Positions 18,174 through 38,754 of a stretch of 43,871 nucleotides of DNA are shown here, piece by piece. The DNA is from Elusimicrobiota bacterium (GTDB lineage: Bacteria > Elusimicrobiota > Elusimicrobia > Elusimicrobiales > UBA9959). The notes under the pieces were generated by a model. That model saw only the letters and a program-made list of their open reading frames with translations, had not been told where the DNA came from and searched no databases. Made by a program: the position numbers and the translations under genes. The stretch lies in NCBI GenBank assembly GCA_016209085.1, contig JACQWV010000110.1, positions 1-43,871 of the forward strand. The letters run 5' to 3'. How positions within the stretch are numbered: position 1 is the first letter of the stretch; every line of letters starts with the position of its first letter.

Positions 18174-18779
18174 ATGAATAAAATATTTTCATTTTTTAAA
18201 GCTTCCGCCGGCTTTCTTAAGCGCAACCGCGTCAGATTATCAACCATATTGGTAATCATACTGTTACTGGAAGACATTGTTGAAGGCGTTGTCCCGCATG
18301 ACGTGGACGGGTTTCATGATTTCCTCGGGGCAATCGGTTTGTTTTTTGTCGTATGCGGAACTTTCCTGAGGTCATGGGCCGCAGGCATCATTTCAAAAGA
18401 TAAAGTTTTATCAACTACCGGCCCTTACGCTCTCACAAGACATCCGCTATACATCGGCTCGCTTCTGATGGCATTAGGATTCTGCGCCATTATTGACGAC
18501 GGTGAAAACATATTGATTATCCTTCTGGTAATTTTTGCGGTATATTTGCCGAAAATCCGAGATGAAGAAAAATCGCTTGCTCAAATATTCGGCGAGGAAT
18601 GGAACAGATATACCAGAAACATTTCCGGATTTTTTCCGAAGCCGGCCGACATGCGCTCAAATTGGTCGTTGTCTCAGTGGATACGCAACAGGGAACACCA
18701 TACTTTTGTACTGGCATTGTCCGGATTGTTTATCTTGGAATTATGGCATGAATTCTCTCGTTACTCAGTTACTCATTGA
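18174..18779 (+). CDS. Isoprenylcysteine carboxyl methyltransferase (ICMT/PEMT)-like membrane protein
   Basis: Integral membrane methyltransferase fold. The cofactor signature GPYALTRHPLYIGSLLMALGF and the following IRDEEKSLAQIFGEEWNRYTR (E...F G..W..Y) are typical. About five hydrophobic segments, including one at the extreme C-terminus (LALSGLFILELW). The substrate in bacteria is not established. It starts 10 nt after tRNA-Gln, so it may share its transcript. Confidence 0.85.
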   Translation: MNKIFSFFKASAGFLKRNRVRLSTILVIILLLEDIVEGVVPHDVDGFHDFLGAIGLFFVVCGTFLRSWAAGIISKDKVLSTTGPYALTRHPLYIGSLLMALGFCAIIDDGENILIILLVIFAVYLPKIRDEEKSLAQIFGEEWNRYTRNISGFFPKPADMRSNWSLSQWIRNREHHTFVLALSGLFILELWHEFSRYSVTH

Positions 18780-21006: not shown

Positions 21007-21101
21007 AATTTTTTCAGGATTTTCCGAATTTATTATATTATAATATCCGCATGACTGCAAAATTAAATAAACCGCGTTTCTTCACCCCTCATGGCAGAAG
21101 A

Positions 21102-22163
21102 ATGTTTACTCGCCGCTATCCGCTCTTCGCTTGCCGCTTATCATTCGTCACGCTCCTATCATTTGCCGCTATTACCAATGCTCATGCGTTGATTTCATAC
21201 GGTTCGGGTTATGAATTGTTATCTTCCGCCATAAACAGCGGCGGTCAATATCTTTCCGCAAACAATTATGAGGCAAGAGGAGCAGCCGGACAAAATATCG
21301 CTTCTTCCCCGTCGGACATAAGCAAAAACGCCGGTTTTGCAAACAGAAGCGGTTTTTACAATCCTCCTTATTTCATGTATCAAAAAAACATGCCGGTAAA
21401 TTTTGAAAACTCGTCAATAAAATTAAATGTTCCGCCGAATTATGTTGATAAAAATGTTTTTGACATATTTTTAAACGACGACGCCAATAAAAGTTCTAAG
21501 AAAGAAAAAGTGGAAGAAGCCAATTCAAAAATACAAATAAGAAAGGGAAATCTTGCATATCCGCTGATCTTCAATGAATTGTATTTTATGGATGAGGAAA
21601 ATTTCTACAAAGGCGATTTTAAACACAAAGGGGAGATTTCTTTCAAGGTTCAAGACGCCAATGGCGACGGCAATGTGGACGGAACAAATCCTCCGGTGAG
21701 ATTCTCCACATTGAGAGGATACGTGCTTGACGAGGATACCAGTATGTGGCTTAAAACCTTTAATAATGAGCTTAACGCTAATCAAACTTATATAAAATTT
21801 GCTTTTACCCGGCCGTCAATCTACGCCGTTATAGGGCAGATAGACGACATCGTCAAAGATGTTTTCGCCTATCCTGTGCCTTTCCGGCCAAACGGCCCCA
21901 ACGCCGGAAACAGCGCGGGTCAAACTGGAACAGAAGCCGAAGGCATAACATTCGCCAATATTCCCCAAACAGGGAGCATTGAAATTTACACCATTGACGG
22001 CCGGCTGGTAAGAAAAATTGAAATACCTCTAAATTTAGTCGTTTCAAAAATAAAATGGGATGTGAAAAATGCGTCTGGGGAAAAGGCTGTAAGCGGAGTT
22101 TATATTTGGCGCATTATCTCAAATGGAAACAGCAAAACCGGAAAATTGGTGATAATAAGATAA
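21102..22163 (+). CDS. Secreted protein with FlgD/T9SS-type C-terminal domain
   Basis: Begins with a signal peptide (FACRLSFVTLLSFAAITNAHA); the frame is open upstream to 21051 but that would overlap the divergent regulator's leader. The middle has an acidic stretch VQDANGDGNVDG resembling a calcium-binding dockerin-like loop. The C-terminus has the Ig-like sorting pattern: AYPVPFRPNG, then IEIYTIDGRLVRKIEIP, then GEKAVSGVYIWRI and GKLVIIR. In Bacteroidota such type A domains direct cargo through the type IX system; here that role is inferred, supported by a PorV-like gene at 29.3 kb. The stop codon is also the left target-site copy of a MITE. Confidence 0.82.
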   Translation: MFTRRYPLFACRLSFVTLLSFAAITNAHALISYGSGYELLSSAINSGGQYLSANNYEARGAAGQNIASSPSDISKNAGFANRSGFYNPPYFMYQKNMPVNFENSSIKLNVPPNYVDKNVFDIFLNDDANKSSKKEKVEEANSKIQIRKGNLAYPLIFNELYFMDEENFYKGDFKHKGEISFKVQDANGDGNVDGTNPPVRFSTLRGYVLDEDTSMWLKTFNNELNANQTYIKFAFTRPSIYAVIGQIDDIVKDVFAYPVPFRPNGPNAGNSAGQTGTEAEGITFANIPQTGSIEIYTIDGRLVRKIEIPLNLVVSKIKWDVKNASGEKAVSGVYIWRIISNGNSKTGKLVIIR

Positions 22164-22434
22164 GGGCTCGTGACAGAATAATATGAACATTTGGCTGAGC
22201 CGACCCCGCACATGATGCGGGGCAAGAAGTGAGGAGCGAGCATATCGTTTGATATGTAAGCGACGAACGACGCAGTTGCAGCCGAAAAGCGGCCAGCCCC
22301 TTTGGGGAGGCTCATATTTGGCCGTCTGCTGCGTTGCTCCTCATTCACATAGCCTATGCTATGCTCATTCGTCGCGCCTTGCATCCAATCCAAATCTGAG
22401 CCTCCAAATGTTCATATTATTCTGTCACGAGCCC
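22164..22434. mobile_element. MITE with perfect 31-bp terminal inverted repeats
   Basis: The ends 22164-22194 (GGGCTCGTGACAGAATAATA...) and 22404-22434 are perfect 31-bp inverted repeats, and the 271-bp unit is flanked by TAA on both sides (22161-22163 and 22435-22437), a probable 3-bp target duplication. The left TAA is the stop codon of the preceding gene. Inside are nested imperfect palindromes (GAGGAGCGAGC.../...GCTCCTC) but no transposase. It fills most of the 341-nt gap before the adhesin gene. Confidence 0.88.
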
Positions 22435-22504
22435 TAACGCACAAAACGCAAAAGCGCATAATCTGTTATTTTGATTTATAACGGCTGAAAATGAGGCAAT
22501 TCAT

Positions 22505-25500
22505 ATGAAAAATATAAAAAATAAAATAACAAGTCTTTATAGTTTTGCTTTAAAAATTATGTTTTTTACCTTTTTTATCTTTTCTTATCTATTTCCTCTA
22601 CTTCCCCATAACCTCTCCCCTATATCATTCCTCTATGCCGACCCCCCCATAAAATTCACCTATCAGGGCAATATCCGTCAGGACGGCATACTTATAAACG
22701 GAAATAGAACCATATCTTTTAGCGTGTATGATTCTTCTTATGCTCCCGCGGCATTATGGACAAGCAATCCTGAAAGCGTGTCAATTTCAACCGGAGTTTT
22801 CAGGCTTGAACTTGAGCCAAACATAAATACTCAAGACTGGAATAAGGAATTATGGCTTGAAATGGAAATACAAGGCGTGAAATTAAGTCCGCGCGAAAAA
22901 ATAAATTCGTCCATTTATTCCATCAATACCCTGCTTCATTCAGGAAAAAAATATACCACTTCTGCAACCCAGCCTTCGTCGCCGTCCCTTGGAGACCTAT
23001 GGATGGATACTGCCACAAATACGCTCAAATTCTACAATGGTTCCGGGTGGACATCAACCGCAGGCTCTGGCGCTCCACACGCAACTACCCATGCACAAGG
23101 AGGCGGCGATGCCATAACAAACCTTGGGTCTCACACTGTTACAGGAGACATTACATTAACCGGTCAGATAACCGCGTCTTCTTTTACTGCTACAAGCGCT
23201 TTAGGCGCAAAAATTGCAAGGATAGAATACGGAACAAATATAGCGGTCTCATCAGCCGCTGCGGCAAACTATGGCGGGGTATATATTTCAACCCATGCTT
23301 ATTTAAACGGCGATTTACATGCCATTAAATTATTTGGGGACATATCCGGAACTTCAGGTTTGCCGTCTGGCGACAATTTGGGAAATCATGTGGCTACCAC
23401 AACACTGAAAATGGCTGGCTTTGGTATTCTTAACAGCGGTAACGTAAGCGCTTCCTCTTTCACGGCAACAGGCACAGGCGTGTCTGCCGCGCAACTGCGG
23501 CTGGCGGACAATGTGCTGGTGTCTTCCGAAGCGCTTTCTTCTCTTGGCGCGGGCGTGCGCGTATCCACCAATATGTATATAGTGGGTTTCTCCTCGGCCG
23601 CCAAGTATTACGGCGACGGTTCAGGGCTTACCAATCTCCCAGCAGGACCCGGCGACAATCTCGGCAATCATACAGCCTCGCAGAATTTAAGCATGGCAGG
23701 ATTTGACATTGTCAATGTGGACACAATAACCGCGCAGACGCAGGGGATTTACTTAGGAACGCATGTGTTTGTAACCCAGGGCAACTTAGGAATCGGAACG
23801 ACAAGTCCTGGAGCAAAACTTGATATCGCCGGCCAGGTAAAAATAACCGGCGGATCCCCCGGGTCAGGCAAGGTGCTTACATCAGACGCTGCAGGCCTGG
23901 CCACATGGGGCACGGCAGCAGTCGCCGATAACCTTGGCAATCATGTGGCTACGACAACATTGAACATGGCGGGATTTAATATTACGAGCGTTTCAACCAT
24001 CACAGTAAGTTCAATAACCACAACCGTAGCAAGCGTAACATTCAGCACGAATGTCTATATAGTAGGGTTCTCCTCGGCTGCCAAGTATTATGGCGACGGT
24101 TCAGCGCTTACCAATCTTCCAGCTGGACCTGGCGATAACTTAGGCAGTCATATTGCCACAACAACTTTGGATATGGCCGGGTTTAATATTGTTAAAGCTG
24201 CTACGATTACGGCAAGCGGGCAGGGAGTATATTTAGGAACGCATGTTTTTGTAACGCAGGGCAACTTCGGCATCGGAACCACGAATCCAAGCACAAAACT
24301 GGAAGTTAAAGGACAAGTAAAGATTGTGGATGCCAGCCAGGGAGCGGGCAAAGTTTTAACATCAGATGCAAATGGTTTAGCCAGCTGGCAGACTCCCGGG
24401 GCAGGTTCGGGCGACAATTTGGGAAATCATGTGGCTACGACAACCTTACAGATGGGCGCTTACGGCGTGAACACCTCCAGCCACATCAGCGCAGCTGCCT
24501 TTCAAATAAAGGGCAGCACAATGGTGGCTGTATTGCCCGGTATAGACAGTATTGCTTACGGCGTATATGCAGGAACCAGCAATATAACAGGCGGGGATTA
24601 TAATGTTTTTATCGGAAATTATGCAGGAACATCCAACACGAACGGAAATAATAACACGGCGAACGGTTATTTTGCACTCCGCTCCAACACCACCGGTAAT
24701 GGTAACACAGCGAACGGCGTTTCTGTTCTCTACTTCAATACAACGGGCAATTACAACACCGCGAACGGCTATGCTGCCCTCTACTCCAACACGAGCGGCA
24801 TTTATAATACAGTGAACGGTATGGGTGCCCTCTACTACAACACGACCGGCTCCGATAACACCGCGAACGGTTATAAAGCTTTTTACTTCAATCAAACAGG
24901 TTCTGCTAATTCTGTTGTAGGTTATCAAGCTGCTTATGGCGTATCCGGGAATTCCTTTTCAAGCTCAACGATTATGGGTTATCAGGCAGGGTATGGTCTG
25001 ACTACCGGTTCTGATAACACTTTCTTTGGCTGGCAGGCAGGGTACAATGTAACAAGCGGAACAGGCAACATAATTATTGGATATAACCAAAATGCGCCAT
25101 TAGCGACAACTAATAATTTCCTTAACATCGGCGGCGTACTTTACGGCGACTTGTCAGCAAAGACCATAGGGATAAGCACCCGCGCGCCGCAGGCCGCGCT
25201 GGACATTGTTTCCACCGGCACTGCTGCAAATCAGATGGCGCAAATCTGGCGGGACGGTTCAGGCGTGATAGTCGGCTCTATGTCGGCTACCGGCGTGTTT
25301 AAAGCGGTAAAACTTTTGGGCGACGGCTCAGGGCTTACCAATCTCCCAGCGGGACCCGGCGACAATCTGGGCAATCATACGGCCACGACAACATTAAACA
25401 TGGCTAATTATGGAATAATAAATGTCTCAACTTCTACTTTTAATGGATATATAGATGTAAAAAGTACAGAGGGATACAAAATAGATGGTGTTACTGTACT

Positions 25501-27316
25501 TAGAAGTTCTTCTGCTTTAAATAGCACTTTTATAGGACAAAATGCAGGTAGGATAAATACCGGGAACTCTAATACTTTTGCAGGCTATAATGCAGGCTAC
25601 AATAACACTACGGGCAGTGAGAACGCCTTTTTTGGTCTTAACACAGGCCTATATAATACTACGGGCGCTAATAACGCCTTTTTTGGTTCTTATGTAGGCC
25701 GCGCTAACACTACAGGCGGTATGAACGCCTTTGTAGGTTCTCTTGCAGGCTACCTTAACACTGAAGGTGGGGGGAACTCCATTTTAGGTGCTTATGCAGG
25801 CTACGAAAACACTACAGGCTCTTATAACTCTATTGTGGGTTATTATGCAGGCTTAAGAAATCAAACAGGTAACTATAATTGTATATTTGGCTCTCTTGCT
25901 GGCGGTTCTGCTGGTAGTGCTAATTCTTTTTCAAGCTCAACGATTATGGGATATAAGGCAGGCTATAACCTAACCACTGGAAGCGATAATTTGCTTTTGG
26001 GATTTCAGTCAGGGGACAGTTTAACCACAGGTTCAAGGAATATAATCATCGGTTACAATACAGATGCTCCCTTGGCAACGACAAATGACCACATGAACAT
26101 CGGTAATTTAGTATACGGTAATTTGTCCATCGGCAACGTGGGAATCGGAACGACCGACCCATTAGCAAAACTTGAAGTAGCCGGTCAGATTAAAATCACC
26201 GGCGGAACGCCTGGCGCAAATAAGGTTCTTACCTCTGATGCAGCGGGTTTGGCAACATGGCAAACGCCAGCCAGTGGTGCGGGTGACAATTTAGGAAATC
26301 ACATAGCAACAACTACATTAAGCATGGCTGGATTTAATATAACCAACATCGCCACAATGACTGCAAGCGGCCAAGGCATCTACTTGGGCACGCATGTGTT
26401 TGTAACCCAGGGTAATCTTGGCATTGGCACAACAGCAACGGCCTATAAACTGGATGTCCAAGGTCCTATTAATTTAAATGATTTCACCGACTTCAACAAC
26501 GGCAGCACAGGGAGAATCACTTGGGGCAGTGGCCAGTTCATAATGACATCCAAAGGCATTTATGACATGGTATTGGCGACGAATGACTCATTGGTTCGTT
26601 TAATAATCAAAAAGGACAGCGGCAATGTCGGCATCGGGACGACGGGGCCGGACCAGAAACTGACTGTGGCCGGAAACATCAGCCAGACAGGCGTGCTGAT
26701 CTCCAGCGGCACAGGAAACAACTATTTCGCCGGCAACATCGGCATTGGGACCACGGATCCTGGAGCGAAATTGCAAGTCGGCGATGGTAGCGCCGATATA
26801 CGGACACTGGTCAAATCGAATAACTCATATCAGTTTGGAGCCATGAATTCTTCCGGAAATGCTTTCTATTATGGCGTGACTCAAGACGTAATTCCTAATG
26901 GTGTTATTAGCAATTATGCCGGTACAGCGATAATTACTTTTCTCAATAACGGCAATGTCGGCATCGGGACGACGGGGCCGGGAAGCAGGTTTGAGGTAGT
27001 AGGCGGCAGTTCAACATTCAGAGGCAGTGACAGTAATTCAGCGATAGCAGGGTTTACGGATGCGGGCGGGAATTACAGGGTAATGATTTCAACAACAGGC
27101 AACGTCGGCATCGGTACGACGAGTCCTCAAAGTACTCTTCATGTTCCTGATGGGAAGTATGCGCAGTTTGAGGATAACAACGCCGGAGTTCCTCCAGCCG
27201 CGGATTGTGATGCGGATGCTGAGAGAGGACGATTCAGTATTGACACAACAAATAACAGACTCTATATATGCAATGGAGCAACAAGAGGCTGGGATTATAT
27301 TACGTTGACGGATTAG
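22505..27316 (+). CDS. Giant tail-fibre/YadA-like repeat surface protein
   Basis: 1603 residues. A long hydrophobic signal region (about 1-46) precedes a domain reading KFTYQGNIRQDG ... SFSVYDSS ... VSISTGVFRLELEPN ... KLSPREKINSSIYSI, the N-terminal module common in secreted proteins with fibre-like tails. Then come repeated units: YYGDGSGLTNLPAGPGDNLG, NHVATTTLxMAGFxI, and GIGTTxPxAKLxIxGQVKI. Two blocks (about 679-810 and 1002-1142) are YadA-head-like (NTTGSDNTANGYKAxx). No outer-membrane anchor, chaperone peptidase or sorting domain is visible at the end (ICNGATRGWDYITLTD). A GAGG ribosome-binding site precedes the ATG. Likely a trimeric beta-rich fibre on the cell surface; the function in adhesion is inferred. 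Confidence 0.88.
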   Translation: MKNIKNKITSLYSFALKIMFFTFFIFSYLFPLLPHNLSPISFLYADPPIKFTYQGNIRQDGILINGNRTISFSVYDSSYAPAALWTSNPESVSISTGVFRLELEPNINTQDWNKELWLEMEIQGVKLSPREKINSSIYSINTLLHSGKKYTTSATQPSSPSLGDLWMDTATNTLKFYNGSGWTSTAGSGAPHATTHAQGGGDAITNLGSHTVTGDITLTGQITASSFTATSALGAKIARIEYGTNIAVSSAAAANYGGVYISTHAYLNGDLHAIKLFGDISGTSGLPSGDNLGNHVATTTLKMAGFGILNSGNVSASSFTATGTGVSAAQLRLADNVLVSSEALSSLGAGVRVSTNMYIVGFSSAAKYYGDGSGLTNLPAGPGDNLGNHTASQNLSMAGFDIVNVDTITAQTQGIYLGTHVFVTQGNLGIGTTSPGAKLDIAGQVKITGGSPGSGKVLTSDAAGLATWGTAAVADNLGNHVATTTLNMAGFNITSVSTITVSSITTTVASVTFSTNVYIVGFSSAAKYYGDGSALTNLPAGPGDNLGSHIATTTLDMAGFNIVKAATITASGQGVYLGTHVFVTQGNFGIGTTNPSTKLEVKGQVKIVDASQGAGKVLTSDANGLASWQTPGAGSGDNLGNHVATTTLQMGAYGVNTSSHISAAAFQIKGSTMVAVLPGIDSIAYGVYAGTSNITGGDYNVFIGNYAGTSNTNGNNNTANGYFALRSNTTGNGNTANGVSVLYFNTTGNYNTANGYAALYSNTSGIYNTVNGMGALYYNTTGSDNTANGYKAFYFNQTGSANSVVGYQAAYGVSGNSFSSSTIMGYQAGYGLTTGSDNTFFGWQAGYNVTSGTGNIIIGYNQNAPLATTNNFLNIGGVLYGDLSAKTIGISTRAPQAALDIVSTGTAANQMAQIWRDGSGVIVGSMSATGVFKAVKLLGDGSGLTNLPAGPGDNLGNHTATTTLNMANYGIINVSTSTFNGYIDVKSTEGYKIDGVTVLRSSSALNSTFIGQNAGRINTGNSNTFAGYNAGYNNTTGSENAFFGLNTGLYNTTGANNAFFGSYVGRANTTGGMNAFVGSLAGYLNTEGGGNSILGAYAGYENTTGSYNSIVGYYAGLRNQTGNYNCIFGSLAGGSAGSANSFSSSTIMGYKAGYNLTTGSDNLLLGFQSGDSLTTGSRNIIIGYNTDAPLATTNDHMNIGNLVYGNLSIGNVGIGTTDPLAKLEVAGQIKITGGTPGANKVLTSDAAGLATWQTPASGAGDNLGNHIATTTLSMAGFNITNIATMTASGQGIYLGTHVFVTQGNLGIGTTATAYKLDVQGPINLNDFTDFNNGSTGRITWGSGQFIMTSKGIYDMVLATNDSLVRLIIKKDSGNVGIGTTGPDQKLTVAGNISQTGVLISSGTGNNYFAGNIGIGTTDPGAKLQVGDGSADIRTLVKSNNSYQFGAMNSSGNAFYYGVTQDVIPNGVISNYAGTAIITFLNNGNVGIGTTGPGSRFEVVGGSSTFRGSDSNSAIAGFTDAGGNYRVMISTTGNVGIGTTSPQSTLHVPDGKYAQFEDNNAGVPPAADCDADAERGRFSIDTTNNRLYICNGATRGWDYITLTD
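24541..24930 (+). repeat. YadA-head-like repeat block 1 in the surface protein
   Basis: Repeats of about 16-20 residues of the form N-T-T-G-x-x-N-T-A-N-G-Y-x-A-L, encoded by partly conserved nucleotide units (AACACGACCGGC..., GCGAACGG). Typical of trimeric left-handed beta-roll heads. Confidence 0.75.
25510..25930 (+). repeat. YadA-head-like repeat block 2 in the surface protein
   Basis: A second set with a different consensus, N-T-T-G-x-x-N-A-F-F-G-x-x-x-G-x-x, encoded with lower GC and different codons from block 1. Suggests separate origin or rapid divergence of the two blocks. Confidence 0.7.
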
Positions 27317-36404: not shown

Positions 36405-36429
36405 TGTTTATCCGGATTTGTTAGGAGAA

Positions 36430-38754
36430 ATGAGTTTGGATGGCTTTTCCATTCTGCTTGGAGACAGGCAAGTGGGGAAAAATTTTTTGTTAGAACAAAT
36501 TGTGAGAAAAGTTTTATTTGCTCTTTTTTTAATTATGCCAAAGAACGTGTTTTGCGCGGATTACATGCGTTCTTACGCTTTAATACACGCTTTTCCTTCG
36601 GATTTCGCGGATTTTAAAAAAGAAAATCTTGACGAGGTAGAATTTCCGAAAGGTCTTTTTTCCGTCCGGCAGTCAAGTCAAAGCGTTTCAACCGGAACAG
36701 CCGCACTGCGGCCGGAACAACGAGCCTCTGGCTCATCAAGTGCAGGGGGCTCTGTCCCCCTGCCACAGGTGTCGGAGGCTATGCCGACGACCGGAACCCT
36801 GACCTCTCCTGAAATAAAAGCCATATTTCCGTTTGACAGGATTATTCTTTCCGCAAACGCGGTTCTGGCAGGAGAGGATTCCATGACCCTGGAAATCCAG
36901 ATAAAAAATTCAAAAGAGCAATGGAGCAGGTGGTTTAACGCCGGCATTTTCCGGGGGAATGGCCAGTCTGAAAGCCAAAAGGAACAGGAAGACGGGTCCG
37001 GGAAAATGGAAGTGGATGTTTTGAAGTTAAACGGTACTTCGGAATATTTCCGTTATAAAATAACGTTCAAATCCGGCGGAGCGGATTCCCCTGCTGTGTT
37101 GAAACTGGCTGCGATAACTTACGCAAATTCCTTAAGAACATACTATGAAAAAGCGGCTCTGGAAAAATCAAAGAACTTCAGGCCGGTCAAACTGGATGTG
37201 CCGAAAATTTCGCAGGCGATTCAGCAGGTAAATTACAAAGGCGACATCTGCAGTCCGGTTTCTCTTGCTATGGTTTTAAGTTATTACGGAATATATGAAA
37301 ATCCCATTGATGTCGCGGCAAAAGTCTACGACAAACCGGAGAACATTTACGGGAACTGGGTATTTAATACGGCTTATGCCGGAACAATGAGCCTTTATTC
37401 TTTTGTCGCCGCTATAAATACGCTGCAGGAAGCTGAAAAACTCCTGATGAAGGGAATACCCTTGATAGCGAGCATAACTTTCGGCCCTGATGAATTGAAA
37501 AACTCGCCCATGAACAATACAAAAGGCCATCTGCTCGTGATTAAGGGATTTGACAAAAAGGGCAATGTGATAACAAACGACCCTGCGGCTCCTGAAGAAA
37601 AAACCGTTGAAAGGGTCTATGACAGGGCTGAATTTGCAAGGGCATGGCTGAAAAATAAATTCGGAGTATCCTATATCATTAATCCGCGATTTTTTGACGA
37701 AGTGACTGTAAAATCGTCTTATGCCGATATATATTCGGAAAACGGGGTTCCAAAACTCATTGAAACGCAGGCTCTTATGAACGAGAAACTGAGACTTCTT
37801 GAAACACATGGAGACCGGGCCAGAGTTGAAGCTCTTGAGCAGACGACAATGGCCGGAACAGCCGCACTGCGGCCGGAACAACGAGCCTCTGGCTCATCAA
37901 GTGCAGGGGGCTCTGTCCCCCTGCCAAAGGTGTCGGAGGCTATGCCGACGACCGGAAAAAACTCAAAAAAACTCGTTCCTTACGCGGGTTGGATTCAATT
38001 AAAAAATCTTGCCGTTGACATGGCCGGCGGATTTGACCCGTTCGGCTCTGCTCAGGGTTACTGCGTAGTAAAAGACAAAATCGCTGAAATAGAGCCGGAC
38101 AATAACGGGAATAAAAAAATCACGGTTTCAGCCGGAACGAAATTCAGGATTCTTGAGAAAACAGGCGCAAAATTAAAAATCATGATTCCGGGCGGGAAAT
38201 CCGGGTTCATAAACGAAAAACATGTAAACTATCTGAATAAACCGCTTCCTTCAGCAGAAATCCTAAGGAAAAAAATCATTGAAGCGACAAGGCAGTTCCT
38301 GGGCGACAAATATTACTGGGGAGGGCGATCCGGGTTCGGAATTGACTGCTCCGGCCTTGTAAATATTGTTTACAGGATTAACGGGATTGAACTTTCAAGG
38401 AACGCAGACGACCAGTTTTCTGCCGCGAAATCCATTTCAAGAGAAAATTTAAAACCCGGAGATTTAATATTCTCCACAGGCGAAACAAATCACGCCTCTA
38501 AGGGGGTTCACCCCGTTAGAAATCCGCCCTGCCCGAAGGGCACGGCGGCAGCCGCCTCGGGGCGGCTTATTTCTAACGGGGTGAATCACGTAATGCTTTA
38601 CGCCGGAAACGGCAGACTCATAGAAGCGACGCAGGACGCCGGCTCCGTGAGGGAAATATCTTTCATGGAAAAATTCGGAATTGATTTTGCAAAAGCCAAA
38701 AACGGAATGACCATAAACGGAAGAAAGATATATTTTAGAACTGTATTTAAATAA
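36430..38754 (+). CDS. Exported double cysteine-peptidase: C39-like plus SH3-like plus NlpC/P60
   Basis: Residues are numbered from 36418. A signal peptide (KVLFALFLIMPKNVFCA) is followed by a linker, a C39-like papain fold with C278 (GDICSPVSLAM) and H371 (TKGHLLVIKGF), an SH3-like segment (SAGTKFRILEKTGAKLKIMI) and an NlpC/P60 domain with C644 (GIDCSGLVN) and H724 (NHVMLYAG). Expected to cut peptidoglycan stem peptides or cross-links in the periplasm. Three palindromic elements are translated within it: two 105-bp copies (92-126, 479-513) and one family-A copy between the NlpC Cys and His (697-723). I take ATG 36430 (TAGGAG before it); GTG 36502 is favoured by the duplicated 5' fragment at 18786. 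It follows motB closely. Confidence 0.88.
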   Translation: MSLDGFSILLGDRQVGKNFLLEQIVRKVLFALFLIMPKNVFCADYMRSYALIHAFPSDFADFKKENLDEVEFPKGLFSVRQSSQSVSTGTAALRPEQRASGSSSAGGSVPLPQVSEAMPTTGTLTSPEIKAIFPFDRIILSANAVLAGEDSMTLEIQIKNSKEQWSRWFNAGIFRGNGQSESQKEQEDGSGKMEVDVLKLNGTSEYFRYKITFKSGGADSPAVLKLAAITYANSLRTYYEKAALEKSKNFRPVKLDVPKISQAIQQVNYKGDICSPVSLAMVLSYYGIYENPIDVAAKVYDKPENIYGNWVFNTAYAGTMSLYSFVAAINTLQEAEKLLMKGIPLIASITFGPDELKNSPMNNTKGHLLVIKGFDKKGNVITNDPAAPEEKTVERVYDRAEFARAWLKNKFGVSYIINPRFFDEVTVKSSYADIYSENGVPKLIETQALMNEKLRLLETHGDRARVEALEQTTMAGTAALRPEQRASGSSSAGGSVPLPKVSEAMPTTGKNSKKLVPYAGWIQLKNLAVDMAGGFDPFGSAQGYCVVKDKIAEIEPDNNGNKKITVSAGTKFRILEKTGAKLKIMIPGGKSGFINEKHVNYLNKPLPSAEILRKKIIEATRQFLGDKYYWGGRSGFGIDCSGLVNIVYRINGIELSRNADDQFSAAKSISRENLKPGDLIFSTGETNHASKGVHPVRNPPCPKGTAAAASGRLISNGVNHVMLYAGNGRLIEATQDAGSVREISFMEKFGIDFAKAKNGMTINGRKIYFRTVFK
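36692..36796. repeat. Palindromic element family B, 105 bp, copy 1
   Basis: Starts and ends with CCGGAA, contains a GGGGGCTCTGTCCCCC hairpin and spans exactly 35 codons (TGTAALRPEQ...SEAMPTTG). It differs from 37853-37957 at a single base. Confidence 0.9.
37853..37957. repeat. Palindromic element family B, 105 bp, copy 2
   Basis: 104 of 105 bases match copy 1 (CACAGG becomes CAAAGG, Q to K), in the same frame and orientation, placed between the C39-like and SH3-like domains. Near-identity implies recent spread or gene conversion. Confidence 0.9.
38507..38585. repeat. Palindromic element family A inside the NlpC/P60 domain
   Basis: 17-bp perfect inverted ends (TTCACCCCGTTAGAAAT / ATTTCTAACGGGGTGAA) and the same GCCCTGCCCGAAGGGCACGG interior as the obg copy. 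It reads HPVRN...LISNGV, inserted between ASKGV and NHVMLYAG of the catalytic domain. Confidence 0.88.

Follow-up and report, generated by a model that had tools for sequence, protein, structure and literature searches.

Miniature double-hairpin elements, probably mobile and kept codon-compatible by selection on survivors, in the genes of an Elusimicrobiota bacterium

In the genome of an Elusimicrobiota bacterium we found a gene-dwelling family of modular double hairpins, which is most probably a miniature, non-autonomous mobile family that became codon-compatible through selection on survivors. This reading draws on the architecture of the element, the compensatory changes in its hairpins, the empty sites recorded by nesting, the absence of inserts from relatives and the statistics of frame and stop usage, all of which were observed. 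The family was met as two copies in one gene of the window, meaning the whole stretch of DNA that was analysed (43,871 nucleotides, contig JACQWV010000110.1 of assembly GCA_016209085.1); its genome is labelled G000, and G012 and G017 are relatives. The host gene (36418-38754, plus strand, with a TTG start as listed), defined by its ORF, its translation and Pfam, encodes 778 amino acids with a hydrophobic segment at the N-terminus, followed by a Peptidase_C39_2 domain (aa 260-390), an SH3 match that lies under the curated Pfam cut-off (aa 551-604) and an NLPC_P60 domain (aa 629-692). The original prediction of two 105-nt, in-frame elements that differ by one base and have CCGGAA at either end held for both copies (36692-36796 and 37853-37957), which are 99% identical, the single difference being C/A. 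The predicted length of 35 codons is right for the 105-nt span, whereas the net insertion is 99 nt, or 33 codons, because the terminal CCGGAA is common to both ends. The net elements occupy 36693-36791 (aa 92-125) and 37854-37952 (aa 479-512), both on the plus strand, and their predicted placement also held, copy 1 being N-terminal, before Peptidase_C39_2, and copy 2 lying between Peptidase_C39_2 and SH3/NLPC_P60.

Homologs of the host gene are present in 58 of the 59 genomes of the family, and in the 24 same-family homologs that were aligned both copies and a third insert are missing, with the flanks aligning across the junctions. The third insert (plus strand, about 38488-38590, core 38510-38582) is likewise in frame, lies within the NLPC_P60 region and contains AATCACG twice, 96 nt apart. 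It belongs to another palindromic family, ACCCCGTTAGAAAT...TTTCTAACGGGGT, whose core is about 73-76 nt and which has about 30 copies in the genome, including 1978-2071 of the window. A search with the 105-nt sequence gave 42 matches in the genome (best E=1e-49), which, together with the pattern searches described below, excludes chance. That the duplication was made by assembly is scarcely credible: the genome is a draft of 140 contigs, and repeats of about 100 bp are an assembly hazard, but each copy has unique flanks, dozens more copies lie on other contigs, and related elements are found in independent named assemblies. The window holds other repeats as well. The segment 18797-18902, directly downstream of the ORF at 18174-18779, is 91% identical over 106 nt to 36507-36612 in the N-terminal part of the C39/NlpC gene, and may be a gene fragment or a duplicated signal-peptide region. 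A MITE-like structure at 22163-22435, with perfect 32-bp inverted repeat arms and 209 nt between them, adjoins the 3' end of the ORF at 21051-22163, and a repeat-rich ORF of 1603 aa (22505-27316) contains many internal repeats, of 51 nt and about 280 nt.

The 99-mer is a composite, in which a 51-nt module B is nested in a 48-nt module A after hairpin 1 of the latter. Solitary module A consists of CGGAACA, a 5-bp hairpin, a linker and the hairpin GTCG-GA-GGC-TAT-GCC-GA-CGAC, and module B of CGGAACAAC, the hairpin GAGCC-TCT-GGCTC, a linker and a variable 8-bp hairpin. In copy 1 the 5' part of module A (36693-36712, plus strand), supported by alignment and compensatory changes, comprises the invariant leader CGGAACA and hairpin 1, GCCGC-ACT-GCGGC; module B (36713-36763, plus strand) follows with its GAGCC/GGCTC hairpin and, after the linker, the hairpin GCAGGGGG/CCCCCTGC; and the 3' part of module A (36764-36791, plus strand) consists of the linker CACAGGT and hairpin 2, which reaches right up to the element's 3' end. 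The same three parts of copy 2 are at 37854-37873, 37874-37924 and 37925-37952 on the plus strand. Right of each copy (36792-36796 and 37953-37957, plus strand) stands CGGAA, which repeats the first bases of the element and is found at a subset of insertion sites. The stems covary in both modules: 98.6-99.4% of cells are paired, changes on both sides of a pair were seen in 23 cells in module B and 14 in module A, and the covariation score was unmatched by 500 shuffles. Hairpin 1 of module B has an invariant stem and so is uninformative on covariation.

Nesting provides an internal record of empty sites. Composites of 99, 129, 147 and 177 nt were seen, and module A was also found in module B, at GAGCCTCTGG|CTCATCA. 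At these nested sites, where 48 or 99 nt stand between GAGCCTCTGG and CTCATCA, removal of the insert restores the outer module exactly, which shows that nested insertion duplicates no target sequence. Insertion was seen in both orientations, into other copies and into ordinary genes. Some copies carry a 30-nt palindrome inserted in hairpin 2, and the modules, at 48, 51 and 30 nt, are all codon multiples. This palindrome, CCTGCCTGCGCCGAGGCTTCGGCAGGCAGG, stands in frame at the same hairpin 2 site in two host genes (locus L111, 14857-15034, and locus L122, 3373-3502). A further outer module, GTCGCAGAGCTC ... GCACCGACTGCGGGCAATGCCGCCCTGTTCCGG, surrounds modules A or B at L152 (G000:C112, near 27768) and at L213, L217 and L220 in G017; it looks like an inverted element that shares the CGGAACA and CGAC ends.

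The census of the genome is based on searches and on stretches totalling about 660 kb. Pattern searches returned 55 module A sites and 45 module B sites, with 0 for the reversed controls, and the sites merged into about 81 loci in the stretches read. Complete copies measure exactly 48 nt in 19 cases and exactly 99 nt in 17. Lengths of 67, 68, 79, 80, 106 and 118 were excluded from the tally of multiples of three, their anchors lying in different nested modules or spanning an N gap, and the frame of such copies was still tested where they had coding flanks. Coding calls were made with a home-made codon model, for which long ORFs of this genome served as the training set, and not with a trained gene finder. 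Counted by whole ORFs, 68 of the 81 copies (~84%) are inside genes, 47 in sense and 21 in antisense orientation. Random positions fall in genes in 76% of cases under the same rule, and the excess for the element is slight (p = 0.06), indicating that genes are not avoided. The second palindromic family served as a control, with 12 of 29 copies in genes (Fisher p = 4e-5 against the element). Where both flanks were coding on one strand, 45 of 47 copies are in frame and contain no stop (p about 1e-19 against an expectation of 1/3); the two exceptions, on contigs C112 and C128, arose because their boundaries fell inside a larger nested element.

The host proteins are unrelated to one another. In BipA/TypA the insert separates the GTPase domain from domain 2, and in Era it separates the GTPase domain from the KH domain. 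Other hosts include an AMP-binding enzyme, a MalK-type ABC ATPase, a PDZ-containing S41 peptidase, MltA, QueG, a cobalamin adenosyltransferase, a TauE transporter and a UvrD-like helicase, which carries two inserts. Among the 20 host ORFs scanned, the inserts are mostly outside or between Pfam domains and few are within one. This placement, and the lack of depletion in genes, would also be expected if the inserts were kept because a flexible linker benefits the host protein, or if the element were targeted to coding sequence. We consider that quite unlikely, as the hosts are so diverse, the two sense and two antisense frames in use yield different peptides, and relatives do without the insert, all of which is what neutral tolerance would give.

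Frame and stop usage bear on how the inserts are tolerated. The sense strand of modules A and B and of the 99-mers contains no TAA, TAG or TGA in any frame, and the antisense strand contains one to four stop trinucleotides. About 7% of mononucleotide shuffles of a single 99-mer would also be free of stops, which makes this weak evidence when taken alone. Antisense copies use only the stop-free frames, none of the 18 falling in the frame with stops, and the sense frames are used 16, 14 and 1 times, the third, Cys/Arg-rich frame being that of the single copy (1/31, p = 6e-5). Judged from these frame and stop statistics, the inserts probably behave as translated sequence. If they were removed from the mRNA in an intron-like manner, or skipped by the ribosome as in bypassing, stops and any frame would be tolerated, and the avoidance of the antisense stop frame and of the sense Cys/Arg-rich frame therefore makes such a route very improbable. 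The strong predicted RNA fold (-50.4 kcal/mol, z = -2.9) and the conserved genes among the insertion hosts would suit it, but an Rfam scan of the window gene gave nothing above threshold, only a sub-threshold hit.

The exact codon-multiple length had originally been ascribed either to selection on survivors or to a dedicated protein-friendly design. The first is supported by the in-frame, stop-free copies, the empty antisense stop frame and the near-empty Cys/Arg-rich frame; the second also describes the element, with its codon-multiple modules, stop-free sense strand and clean insertion, and is likely the result of the first. In the mechanism that we propose, a 48-nt module A, a 51-nt module B or a nested composite would insert in either orientation, leaving no target-site duplication, and translation would then make it a segment of the host protein. 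In a genome that is mostly coding, spread would be open only to lineages with a length of 3n and a stop-free sense strand, and this restriction would mean that selection on survivors made the codon-friendly element. Such an origin is what we infer from the bias in frame usage together with a stop-containing intergenic variant in a relative: in G012 none of the 7 examined copies is in a gene, and the common variant ...CTATGTGAACGACC has TGA. In G017, 9 of 14 examined copies are in genes. A comparison of lengths modulo 3 inside and outside genes, which the original prediction called for, could be followed only part of the way, as very few copies lie outside genes and the clearest intergenic one is degenerate; this copy, in G000, is nested in a GTAG palindrome and has a net length of 50 nt. 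The 50-nt copy and the G012 stop variant fit a relaxed constraint outside genes, in very few cases.

Elements of the IS200/IS605 group are characterised by subterminal hairpins, lack of target duplication, a preference for a tetranucleotide at the left flank and single-strand transposition. The absence of target-site duplication was seen here at nested sites. At the left flank, position -4 is C in 28 of 40 cases (p about 1e-10), with CYTT at one site class; a second site class, to which both window copies belong, has CGGA(A) on the right. The element terminus is CGAC or CGGC. Since there is no target duplication, the hairpins are conserved, the left flank prefers CYTT at one class of sites and the terminus is CGAC, movement may tentatively be attributed to an enzyme that recognises folded single strands and acts in trans, like the Y1 transposases of IS200/IS605 or RAYT. 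Most copies have no trailing CGGAA and nested copies show none, and CCGGAA was accordingly rejected as a target-site duplication in general. A classic MITE was also rejected, as there are no terminal inverted repeats with target-site duplication. None of the nine Y1 transposase genes of G000, and none of the Y1 loci scanned in relatives, is bracketed by the element. The half-matches viewed in the search for an autonomous parent were degenerate copies, interrupted copies or full double hairpins of which one half had diverged, and none encloses a gene; the genome yielded no parent insertion sequence ending like the element. Several of the nine Y1 loci carry GTAG-type hairpins instead. At one of them (L121, G000:C36, 2844-3389), the Y1 transposase gene itself carries several GTAG-tagged hairpins in frame, and a module B copy, the only element copy near a Y1 gene, is nested in a GTAG palindrome directly upstream of it.

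These features raise the question of REPs and REPINs moved by the genome's own RAYT transposases, with a share of insertions landing in genes by chance. The element shares with the REP/BIME/REPIN class its paired hairpins and compensatory stems, the lack of target duplication and occasional in-gene copies, which are known for REPs (PMC3733652), and the genome has nine Y1_Tnp genes. The modules lack the organisation of either REP type, however. In the module A and B alignments there is no GTAG at the hairpin foot, and the GTAG type was rejected. The CGTC type, with its CGTC tag, 8-9 bp stem, A/T pairs at the first two positions, 4-5 nt loop and CCA tail (PMC3733652), was considered since the reverse complement has GTCGTCGG, and was rejected as the stems begin with G-C pairs. 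In addition, the Y1 genes are flanked by other hairpins and not by the element, no RAYT gene is bracketed, and REPs are mostly intergenic whereas the element is mostly intragenic. Membership of the REP/REPIN class is thus improbable, although less so than the other alternatives weighed above.

With non-autonomous, palindrome-associated elements derived from IS200/IS605, the family has in common a left and a right hairpin, a leader that is short and conserved, insertion with no target duplication and possibly a left tetranucleotide preference. Fungal mitochondrial double-hairpin elements and yeast GC clusters likewise spread through compact genomes as short double hairpins; unlike the present element they are organellar, and we know of no systematic codon-multiple in-frame insertion of such extent among them. 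The closest likeness is to the Rickettsia palindromic elements (RPEs) and the Wolbachia palindromic elements. These too are short palindromic repeats that follow the reading frame of the unrelated genes they occupy, and for three RPE families close to half of the copies are reported to lie in genes (PMC2229807, PMC3767692, PMC10969869). No mobiliser is known for them either. The Elusimicrobiota family has the same functional hallmarks, namely several near-identical palindromic copies in frame in unrelated protein genes, and orthologs without the insert that align across the junction (one gene, three inserts, 24 homologs). Compared by description only, RPEs are about 100-150 bp long, with long stem-loops and terminal inverted repeats, and occur partly in genes of obligate intracellular bacteria, whereas the present element has two small hairpins and nesting modules of 48 and 51 nt, is GC-rich and lies in genes at about 84%. 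It is a family that works like the RPEs and differs from them in its anatomy, its nesting, its fixed codon-multiple modules and its host phylum. Enterobacterial ERIC, Yersinia YPAL and the 107-bp Correia element of Neisseria are also miniature elements with a stop-free frame and are found fused to genes (PMC2229807), but most of them have terminal inverted repeats and target duplications and they are mainly intergenic.

Of the phylum's 340 genomes, 7 contain the core pattern of module B; these belong without exception to the window's own family and represent five genera; named records with the core include Elusimicrobia bacterium X2_MetaBAT.4 and CG08_land_8_20_14_0_20_51_18. In a search of genome contigs the pattern was confined to Elusimicrobia records, and a search of viral contigs gave no match. 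A literature search found no papers on palindromic repeats of Elusimicrobia.

It is possible, if somewhat short of probable, that we are looking at a class of mobile element specialised for coding sequence, built of codon-multiple, stop-free units with frame-safe nesting, moved by a structure-recognising enzyme and spreading through the proteome by 16- or 33-residue additions to housekeeping proteins. Each insertion would add 16 or 33 amino acids rather than breaking the protein. Palindromic inserts in frame have so far been known chiefly from Rickettsia and Wolbachia, for which relaxed selection in small intracellular populations is a ready explanation; the Elusimicrobia system is cleaner, with fixed 48- and 51-nt modules, nesting as an internal empty-site record, both orientations and measurable frame preferences. 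Whether coding-compatible mobile DNA reflects survivors only or an evolved lifestyle thus becomes testable in one bacterial family, where the element occurs both between genes (G012) and within them (G000, G017). The element also constitutes a natural insertional scan for the sites at which conserved proteins tolerate 16-33 extra residues.
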